Source: Papaver somniferum (taxonomy: Eukaryota > Streptophyta > Magnoliopsida > Ranunculales > Papaveraceae). From it: a stretch of DNA of 64,000 nt. The position numbers were made by a program, and so were the translations under genes. This document shows, one piece after another, positions 20,951-58,745 of this stretch (positions within the stretch are counted from its first letter, which is position 1; every line of letters begins with the position of its first letter). The stretch covers positions 231,025,560-231,089,559 of the forward strand of contig NC_039358.1 of NCBI RefSeq assembly GCF_003573695.1. The letters run 5' to 3'. The notes beneath the pieces are model-generated. The model was given only the letters and a program-made list of their open reading frames with translations, searched no databases and had not been told where the DNA came from.

Positions 20951-21115
20951 ATGGTTTAAAATGATATCATACAATTGCTTGTTGATTTATAACTTAGAAG
21001 TGCAAACCCATGAAATGAGTATTTATTCCTCCATCCCTGTCCCAGTACTATTTATTGTTATTCTACTTTTTAGAGCAAACACATGCTTAGAGCTTAATGT
21101 CTGTATATAATGTAG

Positions 21116-21600
21116 TGTTAAAAATACAAGTTAATTTGTGATCATTATTCTAGAATAATCTTGAAGTCCCCTGTACTAGGTAAAGCCCAGTACATTCTAG
21201 AGTTTATGGGCCTCTAGAGTTTTCCTTTTAATCACGTGTAATCTAGAGGAATTTTTTCTCTAGAATTCTCTTAAGGCATAGTCGATCATAGTCCCTAGAA
21301 TTTTCATTTCTAGAGTTTTCTTCATAGTCACTCACTAGGCCTATAAATAGGCACTCCATGATTTCATTTTGATCATCAAAAAACTCAAGTGAGTAGACAA
21401 GAGTTAGAGTGAGAGCTAGAGTTAGAGTAAGAGCCAAAGTGTCTCTTTGTAAAAAACATAGTGAGCCAAAGTGCTACACTAAAAATTCCCCTTGTAATAT
21501 TTTCATTTTCATATTAATAGAAGTCTCACCTTTCAATTAACCAACCTCTCTTCCTAAATTTATTTCCATAAACACACCACATTTCCGCATTGCGCCAACA
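21116..21600 (+). repeat. 5' LTR of copia element
   Basis: Begins TGTTAAAAATAC and ends CGCCAACA. A TATA box (CTATAAATAG) at 21341-21350 marks the element's promoter; direct repeats of GAGTTAGAGT/GAGAGCTAGAG occur at about 21403-21432. Confidence 0.9.
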
Positions 21601-21604
21601 AATT

Positions 21605-21616
21605 TGGTATCAGAGC
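21605..21616 (+). other. Primer-binding site of copia element
   Basis: TGGTATCAGAGC, four bases after the 5' LTR, complementary to the 3' end of initiator-methionine tRNA, the usual primer of plant copia elements. Confidence 0.9.
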
Positions 21617-21648
21617 AAACCTAACACAGTAATCCTAAAACTCTATCC

Positions 21649-24600: not shown

Positions 24601-25717
24601 AAAAGAAAAAATAGTATATCGTCTCCGCAAAGCACTATATGGTCTCAAGCAAGCACCGCGTGCATGGAATAACAAAATCGACAAGTATTTCTGAGATAAT
24701 GGATTTGAGAAAAGTCCAAGTGAGCCATCACTCTACATCAAAAAACAAGGTACATATTTTGTAATCGTCTGTCTCTACGTCGATGATTTAATTTATGCCA
24801 GTACAAAACAAGAGATGGCAGAAAAATTTAAGAAGGAGATGATGAAAGAATATGAGATGATAGACTTAGGACTTATGCGATATTTTCTTGGGATTCAAGT
24901 AAAACAATCTCCCGAAGAAATATTCATTTTCCAAGAAAAATATGCAGAAGACTTACTGAAAAGGTTCAACATGATGGATTGCAAACCAATTGCAACTCCA
25001 ATGGGTACCAATGAGAAATTGGTAAAAAATGATGGAGCGACAAAAGTTGATCCAACCTTATTCAGAAGTCTAGTCGGCTCACTGATCTACTTAACAAATA
25101 CAAGGCCAGACATCGTCAATGCTACAAGTATTGTTTCTCGGTTTATGAGCGAGCCAAGCAAATTACATTATGCCGCCGCAAAGAGAATTCTCCGATACAT
25201 CAAGGGAACAAAGGATTTTGGCGTCAAGTATACAAGAGAAGAAGATAATGATTTAATTGGCTTCACAGATAGCGATTGGAAAGGTTCCATTGAAGACCGA
25301 AAGAGCACATCGGGCTATGTTTTCTGTATGAGAACAAAACTTATCTCTTGGAGTTCCAAAAAACAAAGTACGGTAGCACTATCGTCAGCCGAAGCAGAGT
25401 ACATAACATCAACAAGTGCGGCATGTGAAGCAGTGTGGTTGAGTAGAATAATGACCGACCTACAACAAAGGCAAAAACTGCCGACAACTATCTACTGTGA
25501 CAATATGTCTACAATTGCAATGACAAGAAATCCAATCTTCCACGGACGGACGAAGCACATAGAGCTACGACATCACTTCATCAGAGAGCTGGTCGAAAAC
25601 AAGGAAATTGAGCTCCAATTCTATCCAACACAAGAACAAAATGCGGACATTTTCACAAAAGCAGTCACGTTGGATAAGTTCAGTCATTTTAGACACAAGC
25701 TTAACATCACAAATTAA
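21649..25717 (+). pseudogene. Copia gag-pol polyprotein, disabled
   Basis: In order: gag (from 21649) with a UBN2-type region and two zinc knuckles (CNVCKKFGHATENC and CTKCDKLNHMEKDC, about 22533-22620); protease region (WYVDRGCSSHMTG, where DSG is expected); integrase with HHCC finger and DDE core (about 23115-23640); reverse transcriptase with YVDD at about 24777-24788; RNase H (TDSDWKGS, SSAEAEY) ending at 25717. Breaks: an extra base at 21766-21771 shifts the gag frame; in-frame stops at 21974, 22838 and 24692. Key residues are also lost: Arg replaces Ser in the protease motif, and Ala replaces the third catalytic acid of the integrase (NGVAARKNR, normally NGVAERKNR). It cannot make a working polyprotein. 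Confidence 0.92.
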
Positions 25718-25724
25718 GAGGGGG
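25716..25724 (+). other. Polypurine tract of copia element
   Basis: AAGAGGGGG immediately upstream of the 3' LTR, the plus-strand priming site of reverse transcription. It overlaps the end of the RNase H reading frame. Confidence 0.85.
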
Positions 25725-26208
25725 TGTTAAAAATACAAGTTAATTTGTGATCATTATTCTAGAATAATCTTGAAGTCCCCTGTACTAGGTAAAGCCCAGT
25801 ACATTCTAGAGTTTATGGGCCTCTAGAGTCTTCCTTTTAATCACGTGTAATCTAGAGAATTTTTTCTCTAGAATTCTCTTAAGGCATGGTCGATCATAGT
25901 CCCTAGAATTTTCATTTCTAGAGTTTTCTTCTTAGTCACTCACTAGGCCTATAAATAGGCACTCCATGGTTTCATTTTGATCATCAAAAAACTCAAGTGA
26001 GTAGACAAGACTTAGAGTGAGAGCTAGAGTTAGAGTAAGAGCCAAAGTGCCTCTTTGTAAAAAACATAGTGAGCCAAAGTGCTACACTAAAAATTCCCCT
26101 TGTAATATTTTCATTTTCATATTAATATAAGCCTCACCTTTCAATTAACCAGCCTCTCTTCCTAAATTCATTTCCATAAACCCATCGCATTTCCGCATTG
26201 CGCCAACA
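25725..26208 (+). repeat. 3' LTR of copia element
   Basis: 484 bp, TGTTAAAAATAC to CGCCAACA, collinear with the 5' LTR apart from the differences noted for the element. Confidence 0.9.
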
Positions 26209-30098: not shown

Positions 30099-32660
30099 CC
30101 AAAAATATATATATTTAATTATATATATATATATAATGCATTATTAATTTATATTTCATACGAGGCCTACATAGGTAATTAAAAAAGTATTAACTTATAA
30201 TTTTAGCGAATTATTAATTTGGCACGGTGTCCACGACTCGGGACCGGCCAAAAATATTATTTAAAAAAGTTTATTAAATAATCGAGTATTAATTAAAAGA
30301 GTTTTTACTGTATGTTTTATACATGTACAGGGAGGGATACTTGTTAGCCCATGGGTTTTTGGCGTTCCGTTTATAAGGGTGCCACATCTCAAGAACCCTG
30401 TCGGAATTGGTTATTTCATATTCCCTCGAGATGGATTTCAAGTAGTAGACATGCTTGCTCATTTCAGTTGCATGTTTTATATATTTAAAGTTGGAGTGCA
30501 AATGGATCCCAAAATATTAAAGAGAGCTGGGTGGCGACCATGCATCATCGGATTCTTTTGTATGGTTTGCTCTTATGTAGCTGGACTTCAAATTTCCCAT
30601 GGACTCGTAAATGAAAATGTACCGGGACTAAAGACATATAATAGGTACTCTGATAGAGTAGTAGATCTATTCGGCATGATATCCTTCCCTGTTATCGTCT
30701 ATGTGCTCGATGATTTTAAAATTCTTAACTCTGAGCTAGGTAATTCAGCGATTCATATATCAATGGTTGCTGATTTTCTTCATCTGGGTTTAAAATTCTG
30801 GAGCATTTTCCACCAAATGACCAGAAGTGGAAACCTAACATATGCGCTACCTGCAGTGTTAATTTTATTGGGGACGGTGATTTATGTGTTTTTTATTGTG
30901 CGGCCGGCAGCGTTATGGATTGTAAAGAATACCCCTGAAGGGAGACCTGTAGATGATATTTACATTACCTTGATAATGATTTCAGTTCTGCTGTGTGGAT
31001 TAGCTAGTGAATATTGTGGATTGAATGGTACAGTTGGGGTTTTCTTACTAGGTTTGGCTATACCTGATGGTCCACCTTTAGGATCAGCTCTAGTTAAGAA
31101 GCTACGCATTGTTTCTGTATTTTTCATGCCTCTTCATATGGGTATCGTTGGATATAAGACGAACATTCACTTAGTTACTTTTGTATATCTATGGCGTGTT
31201 TTACTGATCATCCTCGGTAGTATCCTTGGAAAGTTTATCGGGCTTTTCATCCCAGCTGTGCTTCTTGGAGTCTCGCCGCGAGATAGTTTCTTGCTTGTAC
31301 TTATTATGAATCTTAAAGGCATTGTCGAGGTTTCCACACTTAACACCTGGTTAGACTCAGTAAATACCAAAGTGCGTCTTCAAACACAAAGTTATTTTTT
31401 TTAGTTATTGCAGAATATGTTATAGCATCTTACCAAGTAATTTGAATAATCCATTGACATCTTTTCTTATTTATTCTGCAGGAAATTTTTACTTCATCAA
31501 ATACAATCATGGTTCTCGCACTTGTAGTGCTAGTAGCTATTATTACACCCGCGGTGAAATACCTCTATGAACCTTCATCGAAATATTTAACCTACAAAGG
31601 AAGGTCAATTTTGCAGTCGAATGAAAACAACTCAGATTTTCGAGTGCTTGTATGTGTCCATACCATAGATGATGTTCCCGCCATTATGAGAATCATTGAA
31701 GCCTCCAATCCTACCAAACTCCACCCACTCACCATTTACCTCCTCCATCTCGTTGAGCTTGTGGGTCGTGCTTCTCCTCTCCTTATATCCCACAAATTGG
31801 ATGAACTTGCTTCCACATCAAACCCTACCAAATCAGAAAGGATAATCAATGTTTTCCAAAAATTGCAAAACCGATACAAGAACCTTGTTACGGTTCATCC
31901 CTTCACAACTATCTCTCCATATGCTTCAATGCACAACGATATATGCACCATGGCAGTCGACAAGAAGGCTGCTCTCGTTATCTTCCCTTTCTGCAGGCAA
32001 GATGCAAGTCTGAGGGGTGATCTGGCCAGACCAAATATTTCCAATCGTGCAATAAAAACCCTTCTTCAAAATATGTTGCGGCACACCCCATGCTCAGTCG
32101 GGATCTTAATGGATGGTAGTAATCTGCAAACAAAATCTAGTTGCTTCTTGCCCGACACACCTTACCGAGTGATTGTACTTTTTTTCGGTGGCCCGGATGA
32201 TCGAGAAGCATTGGCTTTTGCAATGAATATGATTCATCATCCGCACGTGTTTGTTACTCTTGTTAGGTTTTATGGTCCTGCAAGTTTATCATCCAACGGA
32301 GTTATTGACCATTACAATGAATCGGTTAGAATTGATATTGAGGGGAGGAACATGTTTCTTGATGATGAATTAGTAGACCATTTCAGGGTTAACACCATGC
32401 ATGATGAAACATTGATATACAAAGAAGTAGAGGTAAAAGATGGTGCAGAAACAATATGGGCCGTCCGGTCACTTCACCAAGATTTTGATCTTATGCTCGT
32501 AGGAAAACAACAAATAGCTGATTCAAAAATAATTTCAGGATTAGATGAAAATTGGGATGAATGTGGAGAGCTAGGAACTATCGGAGATTTGGTAACATCT
32601 CCTGATTATGGTGCCGAGGGCTCAATCTTAATAATTCACCGACGGCAAGACATTAGTTAA
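29139..32660 (+). CDS. CHX-type cation/H+ antiporter
   Basis: Three exons with GT-AG introns in phase 0: 29139-29351, 30331-31359, 31482-32660, about 806 codons, within the usual 780-850 of plant CHX proteins. Exons 1-2 and the start of exon 3 encode the membrane-embedded Na+/H+ exchanger (CPA2) domain, about 12 hydrophobic segments starting at PLPSICLQISILSLV. Exon 3 encodes the long soluble tail (FRVLVCVHTIDDVPAIMRII, LLQNMLRHTPCSVGIL, YRVIVLFFGGPDDREALAFA), the two nucleotide-binding-like halves seen in this family. CHX proteins exchange K+ or other monovalent cations for H+ at endomembranes or plasma membrane. The usual polar-Asp pair in the transport core reads MVADF, so transport details may differ. 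The start was chosen for its position after the TATA box and the MCTTPGIVGSD opening. Intron 1 carries a MITE-like insertion. Confidence 0.85.
29433..30312. mobile_element. Inverted-repeat element in CHX intron 1
   Basis: The ends TACAGTAGAAACTCT and (complement) TACAGTAAAAACTCTTTT are inverted; the inner GCCGGGACC at 29451 pairs with GGGACCGGCC at 30240. The roughly 880-bp interior is almost pure A/T with repeats of ATATCAAATCATATTTTTATA and (TA)n. It resembles widespread plant MITEs with CAGTARAACCTCTATAAATTAATA ends. The target duplication was not resolved (TA or TAT possible). Confidence 0.6.
30066..30137. repeat. (TA)n microsatellite
   Basis: Two TA runs (about 30068-30095 and 30118-30136) inside the intron-1 element of the CHX gene. 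Confidence 0.85.
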
Positions 32661-35353: not shown

Positions 35354-37862
35354 CCGAGCTTCTCCATTCCAATACTCATCATCTCCAACAGTTGTCAAAA
35401 TTGATGGATCTTCATTCGCATTTGCAGTGAAGACAAATGGATCTTCCAAAGCATTCTTATTGGGGTCTGATCTTATTGGAGATTCCAAAACCAAATTCCA
35501 ATGCTCCCTTTTCACATCTCTGCAGTAAAAAACTTGTCTAGCTTGAGAAGCATGGATGAATGGCTCGTCGACTTCTTTTGAGCTTCTCATAAACCTTCTG
35601 AAGTTGACAAACCTCAACTTTGTATCTGCATCCACATAGGATCCATGTATTTTGTCTTCGACTCGCACCCAATCACAGTAAAAAATAATTTCAGTTTAAG
35701 TATACGTTGTAGAACGCCGTAGTATGTAGTATCGTCATCGACCAAGTTAGTATCTCTGGAACTTGCTCTAAAACTGGTGCAAGCTTCCATGGTGACTCCA
35801 CTATTTTGTGTAGTTAAATTTTTTTCTGCATCGGCTGTGTAAAAAAGATAGCCATTAACAAAATATGAGTTGTACGAAACCGTAGTGAAGGTAAGAACAA
35901 TTTCCAGCCTACGAAAATCTTTCATGGGAGTGATTTCAAGTTGTTTCGGTAGCCATTCAATGTATTCTGTAGGTTTTATCCTCCCCGTACGAGTTTGGTT
36001 ACAATTACAGACGTATATCTTGTACTTCCTGTCAAACAACACACAAAGTGACAATTGATATAAGCATTAACTAATATACCTAACAACATAATCAAGTAGT
36101 ACTACTACTCCTAGATAACCTTGCTTCGAGCGAGCACACACAGATTTTTGAAAATGTCATTATAACAATCCCCAATGTTTAAAAATTAATGGCAATAAAC
36201 TGAACCATAAATCAAGAATAGCGACAAAACAATATAAAAGATAATAAGAAACTTTCAGTTTTAGCATGTGGTAGTTAACTTCCGGTTTAAGTTCATTAGA
36301 TGTAATAAAGTAATAAACTAAGATCTATCACTGATTAATACTATATTCATTTCTTTGAACTTAAAATCCAGTGCATAATGCGATGAAACGATCTAAATAG
36401 AAATCAACTTCGGATTTACTTACTCTTCCCATTCAGTATTTTCATCTGAATGTCTCAATATCCACAAACGAACTTGTTCATATTCTACGGTGGTCAAAAA
36501 ATGTGATTTTCCTTGTGAATTAGCTGGGTATGGACCTTCATAAACATCACTAGGCATTGATATCTTTCCACGACACTTCAAAGATTTTCGCCTCACTGCA
36601 GGAAGTATCTCCACGCAATGGCGCGCTCCTTCATTGACATCATACTGTTTGGTAATAGAGCCTTCTACATGATTTTTGTTGCGACCTAGAACCTTGTAGT
36701 ATCTCATCATCCTGCATATGCAGTCAGTAAACAAAGATATGTAATTTTTGCTTAGTTCCAAAAATAATTAACTGGATATTAGCAAACTAAAGAATCGTAT
36801 ATACCTCTCGTAAGGGTACATCCACCTAAACTGAACAGGCCCCAATTGATGTGACTCTTCTGCCAAGTGCACGACAACATGAGTCATACTAACAAAAAAT
36901 GCAGGCGGGAAATACATTTCGAACACACATATTGACTCCACCACACGTTCGTGCATTATAAGAAGCTCAGCACGATCAATAACCTTGAAAGTTAGTACTT
37001 TGAAAAAAAATGATAAGTGTCGAACTGCCTCGCGCAAAGGCTTATGATCTTTGAAACAATGCATTATAAAAATAGGCATTAACCCCTGCATCAGAATGTG
37101 ATAATCGTGAGACTTCAAACCCTTCAATTGGAACTCTTTCAGGCATACTTTCTTTTTCCAATTACCACTGTAACCAATTGGAAATTTAATCGTGCTAAGA
37201 GTTTTACAGATGACTTCCCTTTCTGCCTTAGACATACAATAAGGTGCACGAGGCATCTCCACTTTTCCATTATCTTCCTTCAACCACAAGCTAGGCTTCA
37301 AGTTCAGTAGTTTCAAATCTTTGCGCCAGATGCCGATCCTTGTTCTTGTCCTTATGGCTCATAAAAGTTCCAAACAAATTCTCTGCAAAATTCTTTTCTA
37401 CATGCATGACATCCACATTGTGCCGGATTTGCAGAAACTGATAAGATTAATTAATTACAAAGGAATTTTAAACAACACAAACATATTGAAGTAAGGTAAC
37501 TACAAAGTATAATTGGTCAATACCCTCAATTTACCTTCCAATATGGGAGACAAAAAAATATCGATCTCTTCGACCACGGAGACTCATGTACGGCCGACCG
37601 CTTGATCAACTTCCCCAATTATTTGTCTGCGGTTGTTGTCTCGTTGAATAATTCGACGCCACTCAAATGTCTTGGTGCACCCCTTGTCTCCACACTTTTG
37701 TTGAACTCAGATGTTTTCCGTCTATAAGGGTGAGACTTATCTCTTAGAAACCTTCGATGACCCATATAAGCATACTTAGTACCCCATTTTAGCCTGACCG
37801 CCTCTGTATTTTCTCCACACACACGGAAACCAAATCTTCCAGAAGTACGCACACCAGAAACA

Positions 37863-39453
37863 TGATAGACGCATTTATGTGTCTAATATATCTCTATTGT
37901 ATATAGTGTTAGTGCTTGATTCTATACTTATTTGGTTATCTTATTTATTTGTAGCTGTTTTTAGAAGAATAAGGATTTGCGGCGAAATTGGATGAAAATG
38001 CGGCGTTTGAACCTCCGTTGATAGAGTGCCGGAAGCGCCCCAGAAGTGTACCGGAAGTACCCCAGAAATACCCCGGAGGAACCCCGAAAAAAGTGCGGAA
38101 AATGCCCCAGAGGACACTTGCTATACGGACCCTTGATTTTGGATAAGGGGTAACCTAATTACTAAGGGGTGACCCATTTCCAAGCAGCTGCTAAAGGGAC
38201 ACCAGGTCTGGTTAAGGGGACACCACATTCAAAGTTCAAATAATGGAATTTGGCGGGAAAACTAAGTTCACGTCTGATAATTCTCTGTTGGATTTCTGGG
38301 CAGTTTTGAGGGAGATTAAATCCCTGAAATCAATTGGGCTAGGCCTGTTAATAATAAACAGATCGTATGCAAGTGATTTTATCGATCAACTTGGGCTGGA
38401 ATGGCTGGGAGAAGCGATCAAAGTCCAAACAGAATACGTGTTCTCTGTGAAGTTTTCAAATATATTTTTAGAGATTCTGGGAGAGTTTTACGTTGAAGTA
38501 AAGTGTATCTAGTCTTGTTTAAGGATTAGGAGAATTTTGGAGCGTAAGAAATTGCCAGAAGACGCGTACAAAGCAACAGAAAAGAGATTTCTCTCTCAAC
38601 TGCACGTGAAGAAAAAAGGGAGATAAACTCGGATTTAATCGAGTTATTTGGACCCTATTGGTATATAAAGGCTGGTGGAAGTGAGAGAAAGTTGGGTCGA
38701 GAGTTTGGGGGAGGTTTGGAGGCGAGCAGAGAGGCGCAGGAGGAGTTGCAGAGAAGTTACCTGCTGCTGCTGCTGCCATTAACACGCCTGAAGAACACGA
38801 AGAACGGACTCGCAGAAGCAGTCGTTCCTCAACAGTGAAATCGACTGTCATCTGTGGGTCGTAGTTCTTCAACGACAACAGCACCTCAGCTCTGTCGTTG
38901 ATTCTGGACGCCTTCTGTGGGTCGCAGAGTTCTGTTTTACATCAATTTCTTGTATTTCTCTTCATTGTAAAACACTTTTGAGCATCAATGAAATATTTTG
39001 AGAGCATTTTTACTATGATGAGTTAAACCCCAACACTGGGGCGATGGAGGAGGCCGAGCTTCATAAATGGGTAATTTTATTAATTCTTTTTAAGACTTTT
39101 GCATTAAAAATTAAGTGAAATATGATTTGATTAAATTGGGTGTTATTTGATTAGATGGGTCATGCTTAGCTTAGGTGATTTGATGTTCCATGCTTAACAT
39201 TTACAACCAATGTTTTGAGAATCGACTTTGGCAAAATAAGAGTCCATATATGTTTTGAGCTATTATTGTTGAGAATAAATCATTAAGCCTTATGTTATGA
39301 AGATTGGCCGAATCATTAGTCCCAGTACCTCTCTACCAATTTGTCAATATTTGTATATATATTTTTAAATCTAAAAATCCATTACCTTCACAAGTTCGAG
39401 TTTGAACGATACCCCTTATCATCATTACTACAACCACCAAAAATCACTTATCA
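37863..39453 (+). repeat. 5' LTR of LARD-like element
   Basis: 1591 bp. A TATA box (GTATATAAAG) at 38661-38670 suggests transcription starts near 38695. A GC-rich segment with repeated CGGAAG/CCCCAGAA words spans 38025-38110. An 89-codon ORF (38243-38512) occurs in both LTRs up to a one-base indel and is not believed to be a gene. Confidence 0.9.
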
Positions 39454-40520
39454 TTTTGGCGCCGCCGACGCGGATTTGTGCTTAGGTAGAATTTTTTTTT
39501 TAGGTTTATTATTTTTTTAGAATTATTTGTTTCTTTTTACTTTGTCTTTTTGTCTTTGATTTACAGGTTCAAAGTGGAGCACTAAGGTCTTGGAGAGGAA
39601 AAAGCTTAAAGCGAAAAGCGAAAAGAGAAGAAAAAAAAGGGACAATTTTAGGATTTAATTTTTTTTTTTTTTTTTAGAGTGTGTGAGGAAAACTGTAATT
39701 TTTATTTATTTATTTATTTATTTTGTACTTTGGACTTTAAACAATTGGACTTTATTTATTTTAACCCTACGGAAGGGTATTATTATTATTAAAAAAAAAT
39801 TATTATATACATTGTGTGCAGGGAAGGACGACGATTACTATATCGTCTCGGCCCCTCGGGTTCGTACATGACATAGGAGTCGTGGCCCGAGTCGACGACA
39901 ACGGTTCTTCGCCCGTCTGGTACGGGAGGTAAAATTCTAAACACCCGCGAATCTCCTGCAAGCGGGTTACTGGACTCCTTAAGGTGAATATATGTTGAGG
40001 ACCTGAATATGGACTGTTTTTATTTTCCTAGTAAAGGGCAAGGCCTGTCCTAAACAAGATAAGGGTTCGGATTTCATCACCGTTCTCTTCTTGCCCGCCT
40101 TAGGAAAACGAAACCGAACGCGAACCTAAGCTTAAAATTTGGAATAGAACGAGACCGATAGGGTAACGAGCTTAATAGGAAACTCGTTCGAAAAATATTG
40201 GTTGCTCTTTAAGCACATTTCAAAGTTCATGATGGTTTCTGTGAGTTGAATGCGTGACTGCGCCGCCTTGTGATAGCGGTGAGGCCTTGGGTATCAAAGC
40301 TCCACTGAGCTTCCCTCGCCTCGATTCAACTTACATTAGCTCGGATTGATTCCAGAGGGGTGTGCTCAAATTGTAACGAATTCCTTTTCGAAGGAATAGA
40401 AGCTGGTCTAGAAAACAATCTAAGTGGAGCCATCATGCTTTTTGTTTGCTAGATTCTATAGGTTTGATTTGGTCGAGTCGGACTTGTTTGTGATTGCGTA
40501 GAATTCCCCTGCAATTAAGA
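39454..40520 (+). other. Leader of LARD-like element with primer-binding site
   Basis: The primer-binding site TGGCGCCGCCGACG lies 3 bases after the LTR. The rest is a long untranslated leader with oligo-T tracts (39490-39520, 39659-39676) and GC-richer segments at 39820-39970. Such leaders usually hold packaging and dimerisation signals; none can be pinned down here. Confidence 0.6.
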
Positions 40521-42302
40521 ATGTCGAACTGGTATGATAGAAGCCAATACAATGAATATCGACCTGAATTTGAATATGGACATCATCAGTATTATGACCA
40601 TAGTGAGAATAGTGACTGGGGACGCCAACCTTTTCAAGGTTATGGTTCATACCATGGTGAGCCCAATTATTATCCGCACGCGCATCAGTCATACGAGCAA
40701 GAAGATTATAATACTAGTTCTTCGTCTTTAGAGGATACAATCAAACTATTGAAAAGTAGTCCTTATTATGATCCTTCAGTTCCTATTCCTTCTCTAGAAG
40801 AGACTCTCAGGAATTTAGCTGAGTCATCGCGTCAGTTAGCTGAATCGAAGTATAAATTAGATGAGGTGAATAATGTAGTTATGGACGAAAGAACTGCAAC
40901 AACAACTGAATCTGTAGAAGATATCCTCAATAGATTAACTCAAAACTTAGATCCTACACTAAGGGAACTTTCTTTGGAAGAGACCCTTGAGAGGATAGCT
41001 GAGTCGACACGTAGACTTGAGTTAGAGACGAATGAAAGTATTGCTCGAAATAACTTGAATTGCCAATATAGTGTATCCAATAATACCCTTGAGAATGAAG
41101 ATACTTTTTCACATAATCAAGATAACGAGGTTATAATTGGTAACACTACTTATTTGGATAAGGTTCAATCATCTTCGTACTATTATGATGATGAGGATAG
41201 TAGTGATGAAGAATCTGAAACATGTAGGCATAGTAATCAGGAATCTAGTAATCCAATTGAGCTTTATAGTGATTATATTATTTCTAGTTTAAATCCAAAT
41301 AATTTTTATGATTATTCACCTATTCAAAAGGACGAGGATTTGATTAGGGATACCACCGTTTTAGACGATGTAGTTTTTCCTTTTGATTACGAAGCCGATA
41401 GTGGTTTAGAGGAACGGGTTCATTTCGAAAATACTGTTTTAGAGTCTAGCGACTTAGAAACAATAGTCTTGGAAGAAGAAGATAGACCTGTAGAGATGAG
41501 TAAAGATGCATTACCTGATAATAACTTAGAAGAATCTCTTGAATATTTTAAGGACTATGAAGATACGGAAATTCAAGAAATAATTAGAGGTATATCTAGA
41601 GACACTGAAAACTCTAAGTTTGGGGGTGATTATCACTTCCCTAGTGCCTTATCTTTAACTCTCAGAAAGTCGCCACACTTAGGACTTGATATATGTGCCT
41701 CAACCATCTTACAAGATTATCTTCGTACACTTTTTCCTGAACCTAATGATGTCCAAAGAGAAGCTCAGTTGTTAGAAACCCATCCTCTGGTTGATGTGGT
41801 TTGCCCAGGCTATGATCCCCAGATTGACTTTGTTTTCCCACCAAATAGTTTTCTTCCAACTGTGGGAACGTTTAAATTTCAAATGTGTCACTTATTAAGT
41901 TCTAAGACTAAGCCTAAGTACTTTAGGAAATTAGAATCGACACATTTGCTTCAGAATGACCACTACTCTGACTGTGGTCAACTATGTAAGTCATACCTAA
42001 TTGACTTAGAGGATCCTAAATTATTTAGGTTATTTTGTGATTCCAGGTTCTTATCTGAGTTTTTCCAGACTCTAGGACCTAATAATTTGGATCTTACCTA
42101 TGAGGAAATGCATCCGAGGAAAATAGTCTATTTAGACCCCTTCATAGAACCTGAACCTGAACCGCAATTAGCGATAGTTATCCAGAAACTAGGTAAGGGC
42201 ATGCCAGTATTGTACTTGGTTTACTGCAGTTTCCTTTTGTCAGCTCTTTTTGGTTTTAAAGACCCACAGTTATTCCGGCTACTGTTATACGGTTCGAGTT
42301 GA
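40521..42302 (+). CDS. Unrecognised 593-residue acidic ORF of LARD-like element
   Basis: Starts at ATG 40521 (MSNWYDRSQYNEYRPEF). The N-terminus is Tyr/His/Glu/Ser-rich and low-complexity. Residues about 85-200 contain two copies of a helical motif, SLEETLRNLAESSRQL and SLEETLERIAESTRRL, probably a coiled coil. The middle is strongly acidic (DDEDSSDEESE). The C-terminal third is more globular (LGLDICASTILQDYL, FKFQMCHLLSSKTKPKY, DPKLFRLFCDSRFLSEFF, a PEPEPQLA stretch, DPQLFRLLLYGSS). I see no zinc knuckle, protease or polymerase motif. An intact frame in a young element suggests it is or was recently translated. It may be a gag-like packaging protein acting with a partner element's enzymes; that is inference. 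Confidence 0.7.
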   Translation: MSNWYDRSQYNEYRPEFEYGHHQYYDHSENSDWGRQPFQGYGSYHGEPNYYPHAHQSYEQEDYNTSSSSLEDTIKLLKSSPYYDPSVPIPSLEETLRNLAESSRQLAESKYKLDEVNNVVMDERTATTTESVEDILNRLTQNLDPTLRELSLEETLERIAESTRRLELETNESIARNNLNCQYSVSNNTLENEDTFSHNQDNEVIIGNTTYLDKVQSSSYYYDDEDSSDEESETCRHSNQESSNPIELYSDYIISSLNPNNFYDYSPIQKDEDLIRDTTVLDDVVFPFDYEADSGLEERVHFENTVLESSDLETIVLEEEDRPVEMSKDALPDNNLEESLEYFKDYEDTEIQEIIRGISRDTENSKFGGDYHFPSALSLTLRKSPHLGLDICASTILQDYLRTLFPEPNDVQREAQLLETHPLVDVVCPGYDPQIDFVFPPNSFLPTVGTFKFQMCHLLSSKTKPKYFRKLESTHLLQNDHYSDCGQLCKSYLIDLEDPKLFRLFCDSRFLSEFFQTLGPNNLDLTYEEMHPRKIVYLDPFIEPEPEPQLAIVIQKLGKGMPVLYLVYCSFLLSALFGFKDPQLFRLLLYGSS

Positions 42303-42834
42303 CTAAACCTTTTCTATGTCTGGCTGAAGACTTTAAACTTAGCACTTCTTGGGAGGTAACCCAAACTCATGCGACACGGTAATATCTTCCCTTATCTCTT
42401 TTGCTTCAAATGGTAACAGTTTCTCCTTGTTCATTTTAATTTCATCTTTAGAACATTGAGGACAATGTTAGATTTAAGTTTGGGGGTATGGGAGAAACTT
42501 TTTAGTTGCAGTATGAATAAATAAACTCCAGAGCTTAGAAATTTATGCCTATTTAGGATTGCACTAACTAATCTAAGTGGATGGAAGCATTTTGGTTGTA
42601 GGAGTTGAGGAACCAATCTGATTAGATGACAACATCTAAAGAGTCTATTCATAAAAGCACAGAGCTCAGGTGTTAGAAGTAACAATGATAGTTTCACCAT
42701 ATCTCGTTGAGTCCTTTTCACTTCTATTTTTATTTTATTTTGTTTTTAAACTATGTTTCTCTAAGTGATAGGTGGGGCCCACGATTCAAGTTGTTACCAA
42801 TGCTAGGGTGAATTAGAGTGATTGAGATACCATG

Positions 42835-42865
<31 letters not shown>

Positions 42866-43628
42866 TGAAAAAAAAATGAAAAAAAAAAAAAATGAAAAAA
42901 AAAAAATGGTAGTTACCGAAAAGAAAAGAAAAGAAAAGAAAAAAAAAAAAAAAAAAAAAAAAAGAAAGAAAGAAATTGAGACCAGACCATTGACCAAAAG
43001 GAATAAATTCAATAAAAGTCGAACTGTATTGTATATGCAGTGTGTTGATAGAGTAGGTTATCGACCACTGGTATGGATGCAGTGTGTTGATATTAGTCAG
43101 ACTAGTATCTCAATCCATTAGGATAGGTTCATTTTGCGGAGGCCTTCAGACAGATATGGGAAACGCCGTCACTTAGTGAACATCAAAACCATACATGTTT
43201 TTCTATCCATCTTCTTGATATCCATGTGATTAGTTTTGACTCCGAATATGATGTCCATAGTGCAACTATCTGAGTAGAGCTCTGTCACTTTATATGAATT
43301 TTAGTATGCTTGAGTGCAAACTCGTGTACACAATTGGAATTTCGCATCAGGGTACTTCTTCCTGTAGTCAATAAGTATGCCAACCAAGGAGATTCTTTAG
43401 TGCCTTCCAAGGTTCTGCGTAGATAGCTAAGGTCTGGAGTACAGGTTTTGTGGGTATATCTCTGGTAAGCCCTCCCGAGACTATAACTCGGCCACTAGGG
43501 CCACCTAGGGGTTTAAAGGCTTATTGCATACGCTAAATGCAATCGACGATGCCTGCGACAGTGAGTTAGGATTTTATTTTGTAGTTTTGATTTGCTCGGG
43601 ACTAGCAAATAATAAGTTTGGGGGTATT
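42303..43628 (+). other. 3' internal region of LARD-like element
   Basis: Non-coding. Holds GAACATTGAGGACAATGTTA plus AAGTTTGGGGG at about 42450-42485, a combination common near the 3' end of gag or env-like regions in plant gypsy-type elements. It also holds an A-rich tract at 42834-42975 and a second AAGTTTGGGGG at about 43615, directly before the 3' LTR (polypurine tract). Confidence 0.6.
42834..42975 (+). repeat. A-rich simple repeat
   Basis: Long A runs broken by G and TG, plus (AAAAG)n. The lysine-rich and phenylalanine-rich frames across it are artefacts of composition. Confidence 0.9.
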
Positions 43629-45211
43629 TGATAGACGCATTTATGTGTCTAATATATCTCAATTGTATATAGTGTTAGCAGTTGATTGTACTTATTTGGT
43701 TTTATATTTGTAGTGTTTTCAGAAGAATAAGGATTTGCGGCGAAATTGGATGAAAATGCGGCGTTTGAACCTCCGTTGATAGAGTGCCGGAAGCGCCCCA
43801 GAAGTGTACCGGAAGTACCCCAGAAATACCCCGGAGGAACCCCGAAAAAAGTGCGGAAAATGCCCCAGAGGACACTTGCTATACGGACCCTTGATTTTGG
43901 ATAAGGGGTAACCTAATTACTAAGGGGTGACCCATTTCCAAGCAGCTGCTAAAGGGACACCAGGTCTGGTTAAGGGGACACCACATTCAAAGTTCAAATA
44001 ATGGAATTTGGCGGGAAAACTAAGTTCACGTCTGATAATTCTCTGTTGGATTTCTGGGCAGTTTTGAGGGAGATTAAATCCCTGAAATCAATTGGGCTAG
44101 GCCTGTTAATAATAAACAGATCGTATGCAAGTGATTTTATCGATCAACTTGGGCTGGAATGGCTGGGAGAAGCGATCAAAGTCCAAACAGAATACGTGTT
44201 CTCTGTGAAGTTTTCAATATATTTTTAGAGATTCTGGGAGAGTTTTACGTTGAAGTAAAGTGTATCTAGTCTTTTTTAAGGATTAGGAGAATTTTGGAGC
44301 GTAAGAAATTGCCAGAAGACGCGTACAAAGCAACAGAAAAGAGATTTCTCTCTCAACTGCACGTGAAGAAAAAAGGGAGATAAACTCGGATTTAATCGAG
44401 TTATTTGGACCCTATTGGTATATAAAGGCTGGTGGGAAGTGATAGAAAGTTTTGTCGAGAGTTTGGGGGAGGTTTGGAGGCGAGCAGAGAGGCGCAGGAG
44501 GAGTTGCAGAGAAGTTACCTGCTGCTGCTGCTGCCATTAACACGCCTGAAGAACACGAAGAACGGACTCGCAGAAGCAGTCGTTCCTCAACAGTGAAATC
44601 GACTGTCATCTGTGGGTCGTAGTTCTTCAACGACAACAGCACCTCAGCTCTGTCGTTGATTCTGGACGCCTTCTGTGGGTCGCAGAGTTCTGTTTTACAT
44701 CAATTTCTTGTATTTCTCTTCATTGTAAAACACTTTTGAGCATCAATGAAATATTTTGAGAGCATTTTTACTATGATGAGTTAAACCCCAACACTGGGGC
44801 GATGGAGGAGGCCGAGCTTCATAAATGGGTAATTTTATTAATTCTTTTTAAGACTTTTGCATTAAAAATTAAGTGAAATATGATTTGATTAAATTGGGTG
44901 TTATTTGATTAGATGGGTCATGCTTAGCTTAGGTGATTTGATGTTCCATGCTTAACATTTACAACCAATGTTTTGAGAATCGACTTTGGCAAAATAAGAG
45001 TCCATATATGTTTTGAGCTATTATTGTTGAGAATAAATCATTAAGCCTTATGTTATGAAGATTGGCCGAATCATTAGTCCCAGTACCTCTCTACCAATTT
45101 GTCAATATTTGTATATATATTTTTAAATCTAAAAATCCATTACCTTCACAAGTTCGAGTTTGAACGATACCCCTTATCATCATTACTACAACCACCAAAA
45201 ATCACTTATCA
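43629..45211 (+). repeat. 3' LTR of LARD-like element
   Basis: 1583 bp, nearly identical to the 5' LTR. It differs by small indels near 43675-43710, one-base differences at about 44218 and 44274, and a few bases near 44434-44455. Confidence 0.9.
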
Positions 45212-46109
45212 AAACATGAGCATATGCAGGGAAGTCATGTATGCGCCACAATAACATTGCTTTCATTGTAAAGGATATCTTTGTATGCGCATCATACGTT
45301 ACCGCACCGAGTGTCCACAAATCAATTAACTCGTCGATCAAAGGATGCAAACGAACATCTATGTTATGATTGGGACCAAGTGGACCAGGAATCAGTAGTG
45401 TTAACATCCTAAAATCCTTTGACGTGCATTCAGATGGCGGAAGGTTGTAACAAGTAAGCATAACAGGCCATGTACTATGCACGCTCATCATTCTGAAAGG
45501 GTTAAAACCATCAGTAGCTAGTCCCAGACGTACATTTCGCTTCTCTTCAGCAAAGTCAGGCCACTTCATGTCTATTGACTTCCATTGCGAAGAATCCACC
45601 GGATGTCTCATGTGTGTAGCACTTTCTTCAACCTTAGCATACCATGTCATCAGCTCAGCTATCCATGTTATACCATACATACGTTGCAACCTTTCTGTGA
45701 CTGAAAAATACCTAAGTCTCTTCACTGGAACCTTTTTCGTTGATGTACTGCCTTCTGGTGGTTTCTGCCATCTACTTTCCCCATATTTAGGACACTTATC
45801 TTCATTAACATACTCCTTGCGATAAAGAATACAATCATTGATGCAAGCATGGGTGATATGGACAGGCAACTGAAATGGCTTAATCATGTCCTTTGCTTTA
45901 CGAAAATTAGATGTTAATGTATTCCCTTTCGGTAAAATAATTTTCAAATATCCAAATAATTCAGTCATGAAAACATCAGAACACTAATACCTCGCTTGCA
46001 TACTAAGCAACTCAATTGTTGCTGAAAGTTTTGGATGTTCAGCATCACAAACTGGAAATAGGGGTTGCACCGCATCCTTCAACCTCTTCCTGCTATTGAC
46101 AGTAGCCCG

Positions 46110-52689: not shown

Positions 52690-54960
52690 ATGCTCTAACA
52701 ATTTAGTTAGAGTCTAAAAAGTTTGTATGAGATAAGAAATGACATGTAAAACCTAGAATGGTTCAACGTCAGAAATATTTTTTAAGTAAAAAAATTATAT
52801 ATAAAATAAGGTCGGTCTTATGAAAAAATCTAAAGAGGCGGTATGTATTGATTATAAATAGGCACACGATGTATACACTGTAACCTAAGCAAGAATTAAT
52901 AAAAAAGAGTGAGTTTACTGAGAATATTGTTGCTTCACCTACTAGGAGCTTTATAAAAACAACACTAAGGCAATACTATGTTCATATATCTCCAGTAGTA
53001 TCATCGAGAGTTTCCATAAATCTAAAAACCTAACATGATCTCAGAGCTTGTTCGATCTATATGAGGTGTGGAGTTTTCCGATAAGAACCATAGTTGATAA
53101 ATTCAACTACGAAGTTTAAAGAAAGAAAAAGTCGATAATAAATGAAAAGATGCAATGTATAATTGTGAACTATATCTAAAGTGTAAAGTTCAGAGATTTG
53201 TGTGGTTCCCCAACTAACAAGATTTTACCAAATTCAAGGGTTAATAAAAAAAAAAGTACAAGAAGAGAAAAATAACGAAAAGAGATACAATAACATAAGA
53301 TGAAGAATTTGCTACTGAATTTCTAAGTAAATATAAAAGTTGAAGAGACAAAAAAAAAAAAAAAAAAAAAAAAGGAAAACGAGTTTGCTTGTGGGTATAT
53401 ACTAAGTAAATTTATATAAGTTTTTGAAGAATGAAAACCTCTCCATGAAGAAAAAGAAAATAGAAAAAAGAAAAAAGAAAAGAAGTAAAAATCATTGTCG
53501 AATAAGTCATTAGAAAGAATTAGGGAAGAGAGCAATTGAGGGAAGAGTACAACACATAATGCATTCTCAAATATATCAAAAACCAAAATGGCAGGATTGT
53601 CATGTTTGTCATGAGAATACTAACTTCTGCTCGTGGTCAGAAGAAATGGATTTTTTTGGATAGGCGGAATCCCCGAAACCTCTGAAGCAAATAATTGGTG
53701 AAGTTTCGTAAAAACTCCCAACGTTAAGAGTCGTGGGAGAAACTTCTGAACATACTAGTGGTTAAGTTTCGTAAAAGCCTGACATGTAAATAAATGACTA
53801 AAGGCGGATCCTTTGAATCTACGACGATCAATGTTCGTACAGGCTAGGGGAAATCTATTAAGCTAGCTAGCACACTTTGAAGTTAGGTAGAACTAAAGAA
53901 TATAAAAATTAAAAGATGGAAACGAGTACGAGACTATGTGGAGAGGATATGCATGAAAACTTGTCGGACACAAAGAAACTACGACATCACGTAGGAACGA
54001 AGACCATCACAAATTAAGGGGTAGTATCAGAATATTGTTATCTTGTAATGTATAAATGAGTTGCGTCTGGAGTTTTCTAGTTAGAGAACTTGTTAAGTGT
54101 GAACGGAGTTTGGTCTTGAGGTAAAAATATTTTGTATTATCTAGAGTATGTAAAGTTTGTATGAGACAAGAAATGACTAATATATGTTCAGCATGAAAAG
54201 TTTAAGTAAAATAAGGTTGGTATTTTGAAGAAAAATTTAGAGAGATGTTATTGAAGCCTAAAAATAGGCAATGATGGATACAAATTGTAACTTGAGCAAG
54301 AACTTTAAAGAACTAAATCTCGCTTCACCTCCTCTAATCGTCTAGTTTACTAAGAGCTCTATACGAGAAACTTTAATAACTATTGTATATCTCTGAAGTT
54401 ATCATAAGTGTTTAAAGTTTCTAAAAAATTTCAACAATCTTACATTGCATTTTTCTGGTCCTTCAAGTAAATTTTGCGTTACAACGATAATTTTCCCAAT
54501 TATTGTAGTTTCAAAAGAAAGAATAAAATACTTTATTTCTCTCTCTCTCGCTCATTTCTTTTTCGGAAAAAAAAAATCTTTAGAGAAAAAGAAGCTTTCA
54601 TTAACTTCTTGCTCATATTTGTCATTTGTAAAAGATTTTTTTTCCTTTTTAATCTTTTGTTATTAAATAATTGACTAAAACTAGCTTTCTATATATATTG
54701 TATTTGATGTCTTTTAGCATATTTCTGCATTGTTTTGGGCGACTTATTTTCGCTATTTGGGAAAAATTTCTCTTTGAAATGAGGGGATTTATTCAAACCT
54801 TGATTGCTGGTTCATGGATTGCTATAATCGTTTTAGGGCATCTAGGTTTATTTGGTTTTACAAGATTATGAGCAAAAAAATCCATTTCGGAGCATTTCTT
54901 ATTGATGAAAAATGACTAATGGTCGCAATTGGTTCTGGATTATACCATGATTCTTCCCCA
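52690..54960 (+). mobile_element. Segmental duplication, copy 1: small LTR element plus flank
   Basis: Copy 1 of a direct duplication whose second copy is 55559-58745. 52690-53036 is a 5'-truncated LTR, followed by a primer-binding-site remnant ending CAGAGCTTGTTC at about 53042. 53045-54012 is a non-coding interior. A polypurine-like AATTAAGGGGTAG lies at 54013-54025, and 54025-54430 is the second LTR (GAATATTGTTATCTTGTAATG start). 54431-54960 is host flank shared with copy 2. The element has no gag or pol, so it is a short non-autonomous derivative of copia type. Confidence 0.65.
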
Positions 54961-55558
54961 CCACGTACACAAAAATTGGATATCTGGGTTAAACCAGTTT
55001 TAGGCTGGAATGGGTCTCATGGGTTACTGGTCCAACCTTCCAGTTTACCCAAGTCACTAGTTTTTTTTTAACATGTTAGTGGGTCACTATGGAATTATAT
55101 CGTTTTTCCTACTGGTTCACTGGTTTATAGATCCACCCGGCCGGTCTGGTTCCCAAAACACCGCTTTTCAGAAATAATATAAAAACAAAATGATATAAAA
55201 CCTTATACATATGTTGTACATTAATAAGGTGAATTAACACTGCTTAAATATTTCCTTAATTTGGGTCGTGTGGTAAATTTGGCAGATCATAAGGAAAATT
55301 TGAAAGTATTCACAAATTTTGGATCACAATGTCCATTTGGTGGTAATGACAAGTTCCATTTGATGGTAACGATGGAAACACTTACGCACGGATTTTTTTG
55401 CCACGTGGCAAATAAGCAAGATTGCGAATAAGAAGTGTACCAAATTTGATACAATAAAAAATATTTTATGCATTCCGAATGGTGCGTCCCAAGTAAATTA
55501 GTACGTACCCCCGATTGGCCGTCATGATTTTTTTGGCGATATTGCCAAAATTGGGATT
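54961..55558. other. Spacer between the duplicated segments
   Basis: No gene. Contains a run of GGTTCACTGG / GGGTCACT-like words at 55030-55150 and AT-rich sequence after that. Confidence 0.4.
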
Positions 55559-56035
55559 TGTTGGAATATTGTAATTTGTAATGGTTGAGTCCATAGTTTT
55601 TTAGTTAGAGAATTTGTTAAGGGCAAATGAAGATCAGCCTCGAGGTAAGAATGCTTTGGAGTTAGCCAGAGTCTATAAAGTTTGTATGAGATAAGAAATG
55701 ACCTGAAAACCCTGGAATGGTTTAACGCCAGAAATATTTGTTAAGTAAAAAAATTATAGATAAAATAAGTTTGGTCTTATGGAAAAACTCTAGAGAGGCG
55801 GTACATATTGTTTATAAATATGCACACGATGTATACACTGTAACCTAAGCAAGAATTAATAACAAAGAGCGAGTTTACTTGGAATACTGTTTTTTCACCT
55901 ACTAGGAGCTCTGTACAAACAACACTAACAAGATTTTGATTTCATATATCTCCATTAGTATCATCGAGAGTTTCCAAAAATCTAAAATGGTATTAGAGCT
56001 TGTTCGATCTATATATGAGGTATGGAGTTTTTCGG

Positions 56036-57170
56036 TGTAATGACCCGTCTCTCTACCGATATTATTCCCACTTGTCCACTGCGGTTATCCGGCAGTGTGG
56101 GGTTTTCAGCGCGCATCACTACGGTCATCCAGCAACAACTTCCCGGGAAATCACCCATCTCTGGATTGAACCCACACAAGCACGCTTAACTGTAGAGTTT
56201 TGTGTCGTGAAGCCACTGTGCTGAAAAGGCCTCGATGTTAAGAAAGGACAAATTATTACTTATATTCCATTCGGCCAACCACTGCTGAATATCGGGGTAT
56301 TTAATACCACCACCTTAAATTGGAGCCGTCCTAGGCTCCAGAATATATACAAGCCCAGATATTCGACGTTCCCTTCCCCTCATGAGACCAGTACCTAACA
56401 TATCACGTCCAACGTACTCTATCAACCTCGACAGTTGATCCGTTGTCGGCTCTGATACCATTTGTAATGATCCGTCCTTCCACCGATACTATTCCCACTT
56501 GTCCACTGCGGTTATCCGGCAGTGTGGGGGTTTTCAGCGGGCATCGCTGCGGTTATCCAGCAACAACTTCCCGGGAGGTCACCCATCCCTGGATTGCTCC
56601 CAGCCAAGCACGCTTAACTGCAGAGTTTTGTGTCATGAAGCCAATTGTGCTGAAAAGGCCTCAGTGTTAGGAAAGGACAAATCATTACTTATATTCCATT
56701 CGGCCAACCACTGTTGAATATCGGGGTATTACAATACCACCACCTTAAATTGGAGCCATCCTCGGCTCCGAAATATATATAAGCCCAGATTTTCAACGTT
56801 CCGTTCCCCTCATGAGACCAGTACCTAACATATCCCGTCCAGCGTACTCTATAAACCTCGACAGTTGATTCGTCATCGGCTCTGATACCATTTGTAATGA
56901 TCCGTCTCTCCACCGGAACTATCCCCACTTGTCCACTGCGGTTATCCGACAGTGTGGGGTTTTTTAGAGGCCATCGTGGCGGTTATATATCCAACTACAA
57001 CTTCTCGGGAAGTCACCCATCCATTGATTGCTCCCGTCCAAGCCCGCTTAACTGATAGTTTTGTGCCAACTCTGAAGCCAACTATGCTGAAAAGGCCTTG
57101 GTGTTAGCAAAGGAGAAATCATTACTTATATTCCAATCGACAAACCACTGCTGAATATCGAGGTATTACA
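56036..57170 (-). mobile_element. Cassandra TRIM, tandem three-LTR form
   Basis: Minus-strand terminal-repeat retrotransposon in miniature. Three LTRs of about 270 bp (56036-56303, 56463-56733, 56893-57170) are separated by two internal domains of about 159 bp. Each internal domain has TGGTATCAGAGC (complement at 56451-56462 and 56879-56890), the initiator-tRNA primer-binding site right after the LTR. Each LTR carries 5S rRNA-like sequence, the hallmark of Cassandra. Flanks TTCGG and TTCGA match at 4 of 5 as target duplication. It has no coding capacity and depends on other elements' enzymes. Confidence 0.88.
56560..56670 (-). ncRNA. 5S rRNA-like Pol III promoter in Cassandra LTR
   Basis: Best conserved of three copies. 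On the minus strand it shows the internal box A (GTTAAGCGTGCTTGG, 56604-56618) and box C (GGATGGGTGACCTCCCGGGA, about 56569-56588) of plant 5S rRNA in correct order and spacing. The corresponding regions of the other LTRs are about 56135-56235 and 56988-57080, the latter more degraded. This drives Pol III transcription of the element; it is not a ribosomal 5S gene. Confidence 0.85.
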
Positions 57171-58745
57171 TTCGACAAGAACCAGAATTGATAAATTCAA
57201 TTATGAAGCTTAAAGAAATAAGAAGATGACAAGAAATGAGAAGATGCATGTTATGTTTCTGAACTATAGTCTAAACTTCAAAGATTTGTCTTGTTGTTTC
57301 TCATCCCCAACTAGCAAGATTTCACCAATCCAAGGGTTACCCCAAAAATAAAACAGACATACAAGAAGAGAAAAAGACGAAAACAGATACAAAGACAGAA
57401 GATAAAGAATTTGCTACTGAATTTCTCCGAAAATATAAAAGTTAAGAGGAAACATGAAAAAAAAAAGATCGAGTTTGCTCATGGGCATACTAAGTAAAGT
57501 TATATAATTTTTGAAGAATGAGAACCTTTCCATGAAGAAAATGAAAACAAAAAAAAAAAAGAAAAGAAGCAAAAAACACTTCCGAATAAGTCATTAGAAA
57601 GAATTGAGGGAAGAGAGCAACACATAATGCATCCTCAAATATATCAAAAATCAAAGATCGCAGGAGTGTCATGTTTGTCATGAAAATACTTACTTCTGCT
57701 CGTGGCAAGACGAAAAGGATTTTGTTATATAGGCGGAAGCCGCGAAACCTATGAACCAACTAATTGGTTAAATGTCGTAAAACTCCCAACGTGAAGAGTC
57801 GTGAGAGGAACCTCTGAGCCTACTAGAAGGTGAAGTTTCGTAAAATCCTGACGTTTAAATAAATGACTAAAGGCGGAGCGTTTGAATCTATGACGATCAA
57901 TCTTCATACAGGCTAGGGGAATCTATTAAGCTAGCACACTATTAAGTTAGGTAGAACTAAAAAAAAAAAACTTAAAAAGAGATGCAGACCACTACGAGAC
58001 TATGTGGAGAAGATATGCATGAAATCAAGTCGGACACAGAGAACCTAAGACATGACATAGGAACGAAGACCATCACAAATTAAGGGAGAGTATTAAAATA
58101 TTGTAATCTTGTAATGTCTAAATTAGTTGAGGCTAGCTAGAGTTGTCTAGTTAGAGAACTTGTTAAGTGTTAACGAAGTTTGGTTTTGAGGGAAGAAGAT
58201 TACATTTCATTTTTCAAATCATTCTGATAAATTCTGCGTTGCAATGATAGTTTTCTTAATTATTTTCGAAAGGATGAATAAGATATTTTATTTTTTCTCT
58301 CTCTCATTTCTTTTTTTCTTAAAAAAAGAACAACTAGCTTTCATTAATGTCTTGCTCATATTTGATTATTTTTGGACCGGATCATCTGGAAAGATTTTTT
58401 TTTCCTTTTAAGCTTTCGTTATTAAATAATTGACTAAAACTAGCTTTCTATTGTATTTGATGTCTTTCAACATATTTCTACACCGGTTTGGACGACTTAT
58501 TTTCGCTATTTTGGGTAAATTATTTTGAATTGAGGGTGAGTTATTAAAATTTGATTGCTGGTTCATGGCTTGCTATAATCGTTTCAACAACATCGACTAT
58601 TCAACACGATATTGTTTTGAATGAATTTAGGGCATCTAAATTCATTTGGATCTGCAAAGTTATGGACAAAATAAATCTTTTTAGGAGCATCTCTTATCGA
58701 AGAAGAAAGCATAATGGTCGGAATTGATTCTAAACTATACAACAT

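Follow-up and report, generated by a model that had tools for sequence, protein, structure and literature searches.

A complete LTR retrotransposon of 7,349 bp (37863-45211), located in the 64-kb stretch of DNA analysed here (hereafter the window), harbours an intact ORF of 593 codons without a Pfam match, whereas neither gag nor protease, reverse transcriptase or integrase was detected in the element by a Pfam scan of this ORF and of 19 of the 20 other internal pieces. A 13-base motif, TAAGTTTGGGGGT, which represents the expected polypurine tract of the element, recurs downstream of the ORF and a further time within it, at the joint between two modules of different composition (Table 1). The explanation that we prefer, while considering it possible rather than probable, is that of a pol-less element likely copied in trans by an Athila-type (Ty3/gypsy) Gag-Pol, the predicted protein of which would be a two-part, membrane-attached accessory scaffold, i.e., neither a capsid nor an enzyme.

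Table 1. Positions in the window of the element, its ORF and associated sequence features
Feature	Position	Strand	Basis or remark
Target-site duplication AAACA, left copy	37858..37862	.	5 bp
5' LTR, 1,591 bp, TG...CA	37863..39453	+	LTR pair alignment
TATA-like box in 5' LTR	38662		
Primer-binding-like site, 3 bp past 5' LTR	39457..39474	+	14/18 to tRNA-Asp type
ORF, 593 aa and stop	40521..42302	+	translation, no internal stop
Module A, residues 1-365 (Y/H/Q/N/G-rich start, repeat block, acidic part)	40521..41615	+	common with P0002
Repeat unit 1, residues 65-106	40713..40838	+	
Repeat unit 2, residues 127-166	40899..41018	+	
TAAGTTTGGGGGT, first copy, within ORF at module joint	41615..41627	+	encodes K-F-G-G of S-K-F-G-G
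Module B, residues 366-593	41616..42299	+	
Candidate membrane segment, residues 561-579	42201..42257	+	predicted, marginal
TAAGTTTGGGGGT, second copy, downstream of ORF	42475..42487	+	
TAAGTTTGGGGGT, third copy, 3 bp before 3' LTR	43613..43625	+	expected polypurine tract
3' LTR, 1,583 bp	43629..45211	+	LTR pair alignment
Target-site duplication AAACA, right copy	45212..45216	.	

Structure, insertion site and age of the element

The element exhibits a pair of LTRs with TG...CA ends, a target-site duplication of 5 bp, a primer-site-like sequence and a polypurine tract, as is characteristic of LTR retrotransposons. It is inserted in a CACTA transposase gene: the two flanks match positions 3-135 and 137-210 of the Transposase_21 profile, and an open frame of 336 codons extends across the insertion site once the flanks are joined with a single AAACA.

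Concerning the age of the insertion, the LTRs differ by 12 mismatches in 1,582 ungapped columns and by 10 gap columns. If two substitution rates of plants are applied to this total divergence, ages of 0.29 or 0.54 My are obtained. Eight of the 12 mismatches (binomial p 1e-7) and eight of the 10 gap columns are, however, situated within the first 100 columns of the alignment (37863-37962 versus 43629-43720), such that the LTR pair appears mosaic; outside these columns, 4 of 1,492 columns differ, corresponding to about 0.10 My. The element is young, in agreement with the initial annotation, which had described an intact ORF in a young element, and, given the clustered mismatches, it could have inserted more recently than the total divergence implies. 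From its sequence pattern, the mosaic LTR pair looks like the outcome of an intermolecular strand transfer or of gene conversion. Three of the four remaining mismatches, together with a 1-base indel, are found at 38676-38695, i.e., 14-33 bp past the TATA-like box at 38662 and near the expected transcription start.

Seven ATGs precede the ORF in the leader (39454-40520), opening uORFs of 2-14 aa. A T-rich GT...AG stretch within it (around 39486-39566) was recognised by eye as a possible intron. Shortly 3' of the ORF, at 42349-42364, lies TTGGGAGGTAACCCAA, a 5-bp inverted repeat that we take to occur in other plant LTR elements as well; the piece containing it folds no better than its shuffles, and no near form of it was found in viral contigs. 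The idea of an RNA signal being the principal feature of the region was set aside, the 11 folded pieces reaching z-scores of -1.94 to 1.01 relative to shuffles. At E<=1, Rfam yielded a single match, in the 5' LTR, with a score under the gathering cut-off.

The open reading frame and its predicted protein

The ORF, which is the only one of at least 150 aa situated wholly within the element, occupies a stop-free run of 602 codons, whereas the longest such run in 300 first-order Markov simulations of the internal region comprised 168. Its product would have a pI of 4.41 and a net charge of -63. The low-complexity start and the acidic middle that had been described for this protein are both confirmed: Y, H, Q, N and G together account for 53% of residues 1-64, and residues 201-365 bear a net charge of -37. 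Concerning the SLEETL-type repeats, which had been described as coiled coils, the repeat as such is well founded, residues 65-106 and 127-166 constituting a duplicated unit with a score of 73 (as high in 0 of 100 shuffles); the coiled coil, however, could not be substantiated, since the heptad contrast was no better than in shuffles in any of four segments (the fewest shuffles that were as good numbered 283 of 2000). An internal repeat in module B was set aside as well, with 3 of 100 shuffles scoring as high.

Simple pattern searches revealed neither a CCHC knuckle nor a basic cluster in the ORF product, and the strings DSG and YYDD, each present once, are not accompanied by a domain match. 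Two AlphaFold2 models, one based on a two-sequence alignment and one of module B alone, reached a mean pLDDT of only 32.5 and 31.5, values too low for a comparison with capsid folds or for bearing out the globular C-terminus that had been described. Near the C-terminus, a hydrophobic stretch at residues 561-579 could constitute a membrane helix, albeit as a marginal candidate: its Kyte-Doolittle hydrophobicity of 1.88 is matched when the entire protein is shuffled (43 of 2000 cases) or when its C-terminal part is (260 of 2000), and is exceeded by the same DNA in a non-coding frame (2.53).

The two modules differ in how clearly they appear to be coding. Codon periodicity is strong in module A (V 0.24, p 8e-24), whereas it is weak in module B (V 0.10, p 0.03). 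Codon usage trained on module A barely favours the true frame of module B (-0.064 versus -0.072 for an antisense frame), and codon usage trained on module B slightly favours an antisense frame of module A (0.029 versus 0.023). We regard the evidence from sequence that module B is coding as weak; its 228 open codons nevertheless exceed the maximum of 168 in the simulations.

Search for gag, pol and relatives

Apart from the ORF, 20 stop-to-stop pieces of at least 50 aa touch the internal region, of which 19 were scanned against Pfam, the omitted piece running across the 5' LTR end. Neither the ORF nor any of these 19 pieces gave a match to a family of gag or pol, the few matches among the pieces all lying below the curated cut-offs, and the designation of the carrier as pol-less in the initial annotation is upheld to this extent. 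The same applies to the reported lack of gag, protease and polymerase motifs: Pfam gave no family for the entire ORF at E<=10 and none for either half, or for the related protein P0002 (see below), at E<=1. A profile match to ordinary gag, which had been named among the observations that would speak against a novel protein, was looked for in Pfam and none was obtained. Only noise resulted from PDB (E not below 0.26), PHROGs (E 0.21) and NCBIfam (P0002: E 0.014, with 13 bits where the cut-off is 1123). Here and below, the absence of a match is to be understood with respect to the libraries mentioned and their search thresholds.

The protein search with the whole ORF gave one match among the best 7,994 scored candidates, namely P0002, a diverged relative of 339 aa from ENA, which is located outside the window on a contig of 1,232 bp. 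Its alignment covers residues 1-365 and stops precisely at the module joint, module B being absent from it, both a stop and the end of the contig being possible at this point. Identical residues amount to 53/61 in residues 1-61, 13/26 in residues 175-200, 123/140 in residues 201-340 and 13/25 in residues 341-365, whereas in the repeat block (residues 62-174) only 29 of 80 aligned residues are identical and 39 gap columns are present. The repeat block is, hence, far more divergent in P0002 than its neighbouring parts, and the frame is still open over 339 codons; as the protein database holds only open frames, this openness supports coding only mildly. Since a diverged relative exists, the ORF is, judged by protein similarity, not a one-off.

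With residues 360-593 as query, no match was found among 595 candidates, and P0002 as query retrieved itself alone among 755. Pattern matches were obtained in 6, 33 and 2 stretches of viral contigs and in 16 and 47 of genome contigs, none of them confirmed as a relative, and two motif scans of viral contigs gave no match; because these contig collections are viral or prokaryotic, missing relatives there constitute weak evidence. Among the literature matches listed, no title or opening of an abstract described the ORF.

The repeated polypurine motif and the module joint

The motif TAAGTTTGGGGGT is present in exactly three copies in the window, all of them on the + strand and inside the element, whereas no non-simple 13-mer occurred in triplicate in any of 300 sequences simulated from the internal region. 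Runs of GGGGG are found in that region at these three sites only. Within the ORF, the motif contains the sole GGG among 19 Gly codons, and its exact sequence has a probability of 0.007 given S-K-F-G-G and the codon usage of the ORF. As an origin of the tract copies, a segmental duplication was tried and rejected, the three inter-motif stretches aligning no better than Markov nulls (60 each).

A few codons from the motif, at residue 371 (best values 364-376), an unsupervised phase-specific scan places the strongest change in composition along the ORF, and in neither of two nulls was a value as high obtained (0 of 300 in each). If third positions alone are considered, the strongest change point, at residue 277, is not significant (equalled in 39 of 300 shuffles), such that the change mainly concerns the amino-acid make-up and does not require a separate origin of the two modules. 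The module joint may merely be a domain boundary.

Primer-binding-like site and lineage

The primer-binding-like site reaches 14 of 18 matches, the first 8 bases being exact, to a sequence that we take to be that of the tRNA-Asp type, a score that is unique among the 127,966 positions of the window that were compared with this assumed reference. The two additional exact copies of the polypurine tract upstream of the 3' LTR correspond to a trait of Athila-type elements, though one not unique to Athila. As the element is without reverse transcriptase, its assignment rests on the presumed primer sequence and on the precedent of extra tracts, from which we infer an Athila-like, pol-less element. 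According to PMC1142308, tRNA-Asp primers are used by two members of the Athila group, Diaspora and Calypso. To the Athila ORF families PF03078 and PF20167, the names of which are taken from PMC11728184, no profile match was found in Pfam, neither with the entire ORF at E<=10 nor with each half at E<=1.

Proposed explanation and its alternatives

In the explanation that we prefer, the LTR promoter would produce the RNA of the element, and an autonomous relative would package, reverse-transcribe and integrate it. Translation of the ORF would take place, perhaps once the leader with its seven upstream ATGs has been spliced. The acidic half with its repeats might then self-associate, the C-terminal half anchoring it via residues 561-579, as is proposed for env-like proteins. 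The polypurine copy at the joint could act as an extra start of plus-strand synthesis and, in addition, as a place where modules are swapped by template switching. The protein would be accessory and perhaps env-like, a role deduced from the features of its sequence.

The strongest rival, which we consider somewhat unlikely, is that the ORF encodes a strongly diverged Gag that forms the particle for the element RNA, such that the autonomous relative provides only the enzymes. Gag sequences diverge fast, and the ORF is the first and only large one past the leader. With 1,782 bp it also approaches the length of the gag ORFs, about 1.9 kb, reported for the Athila families I and II, and gag-only pol-less Athila elements are described in the same source (PMC2410132); however, the missing Pfam match, the missing CCHC knuckle and the pI of 4.41 are not what a Gag would lead one to expect, and the ORF starts 1,067 bp past the LTR, whereas the 873 bp of Diaspora are already termed unusually long (PMC1142308). 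Unlikely in our view is an ORF that is a passenger only, still open because little time has passed since the element was copied from a coding parent, in which case the element would be a pure parasite and the protein idle. The few differences between the LTRs and the weak codon periodicity of module B are in line with such a passenger; P0002, however, has diverged to 29/80 in the repeat block and yet remains open over its 339 codons, an argument that is mild, since protein databases list open frames only.

The initial annotation had proposed a dedicated packaging or nuclear-import factor, and a pol-less element must indeed load its RNA into the particle of another, for which a helper acting in cis is conceivable. 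This proposal fared poorly: a protein with a pI of 4.41 and a net charge of -63, in which simple patterns detect neither a zinc knuckle (CCHC) nor a basic cluster, is very improbable in such a role, and none of the 11 RNA pieces exhibits structure at z below -2 relative to shuffles. Most improbable of all appears the capture of host-gene sequence, be it as module B or as the entire ORF. LTR elements can transduce genes (PMC7264820) and the composition shifts at the joint; module A, however, is common with P0002, and no match was found in Pfam, NCBIfam or PDB. A more far-reaching interpretation, which we hold to be quite unlikely, regards the element as a vehicle for cassettes, in which copies of the polypurine tract both delimit and connect the coding modules, template switching that swaps modules is driven by plus-strand synthesis starting from the inner copies, and the protein belongs to an undescribed modular family special to the pol-less lineage.

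Pol-less retrotransposons that keep a gene pose the question of why a parasite of another element should retain a protein. The element described here constitutes a clean test case for this question, as it combines an intact ORF unmatched in Pfam, a known insertion site, a relative whose repeat block is rearranged and, where two modules meet within the coding sequence, a signal for reverse transcription. If modules were truly exchanged at polypurine tracts, a replication signal would be tied to the emergence of novel element proteins.

Comparison with other elements

LARDs possess an LTR pair and a long internal region without gag or pol, are mobilised in trans and are regarded as non-coding in their interior. 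The element resembles them in its LTR pair, its long internal region, the lack of gag and pol and its probable mobilisation in trans, whereas it differs from them by the 593-codon ORF in its interior.

In Arabidopsis thaliana, pol-less Athila families are described that contain intact gag or gag and env ORFs under purifying selection, are presumed to be mobilised in trans and are linked by recombination, which there yields hybrid ORFs (PMC2410132). The element conforms to this pattern in that, in both cases, a complete LTR element without pol keeps an intact ORF and is presumably moved in trans. There are nevertheless differences from the picture given for Arabidopsis: the ORFs reported there are Gag and Env with measured purifying selection, whereas the ORF studied here is, by its sequence, without a Pfam family, and one copy of the tract forms part of the coding frame and coincides with a module joint.

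Additional ORFs beside gag-pol are reported for plant Ty3/gypsy elements; they are often unlike known proteins, and the env-like ones possess membrane segments (PMC7264820, PMC11728184). While the additional and env-like ORFs described in these sources accompany gag-pol, the present ORF stands alone. For an Athila element of sunflower, a sense ORF with partial similarity to PF20167 and a membrane helix in an antisense ORF are described (PMC11728184), whereas the ORF of the present element has no Pfam match.

Concerning the tract copies, multiple identical polypurine tracts are known from Sireviruses, and one extra tract from the linkers of Athila4 and Calypso (PMC2829016). Equally to the Sireviruses of that study, the element exhibits identical copies upstream of the one before the 3' LTR. 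For Sireviruses, however, 83% of the tract copies are reported at no more than 0.5 kb from the 3' LTR, and most copies after env (PMC2829016), whereas one copy of the present element is placed within the ORF, some 2 kb upstream of this LTR and at the joint of two modules.

Other features of the window

Plant-type families found in the window comprise a CHX antiporter and transposases of the tnp2 and Ptta/En/Spm types, on the basis of which the host of the element is taken to be a plant. A Copia element (21115-26156) has LTR pieces that are 97-98% alike, and its frame with gag, integrase and reverse transcriptase is broken by in-frame stops. An old pair of direct repeats is situated at 53269-54833 and 57371-58584, 81-94% alike in pieces and 3.75-4.1 kb apart; between them lie three tandem units of about 430 bp (56036-57170). 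The repeats at 53269-58584 possibly represent another, decayed LTR element without large ORFs. At 30379-32660, pieces of a plant cation/H+ antiporter (CHX) gene are found in two ORFs.
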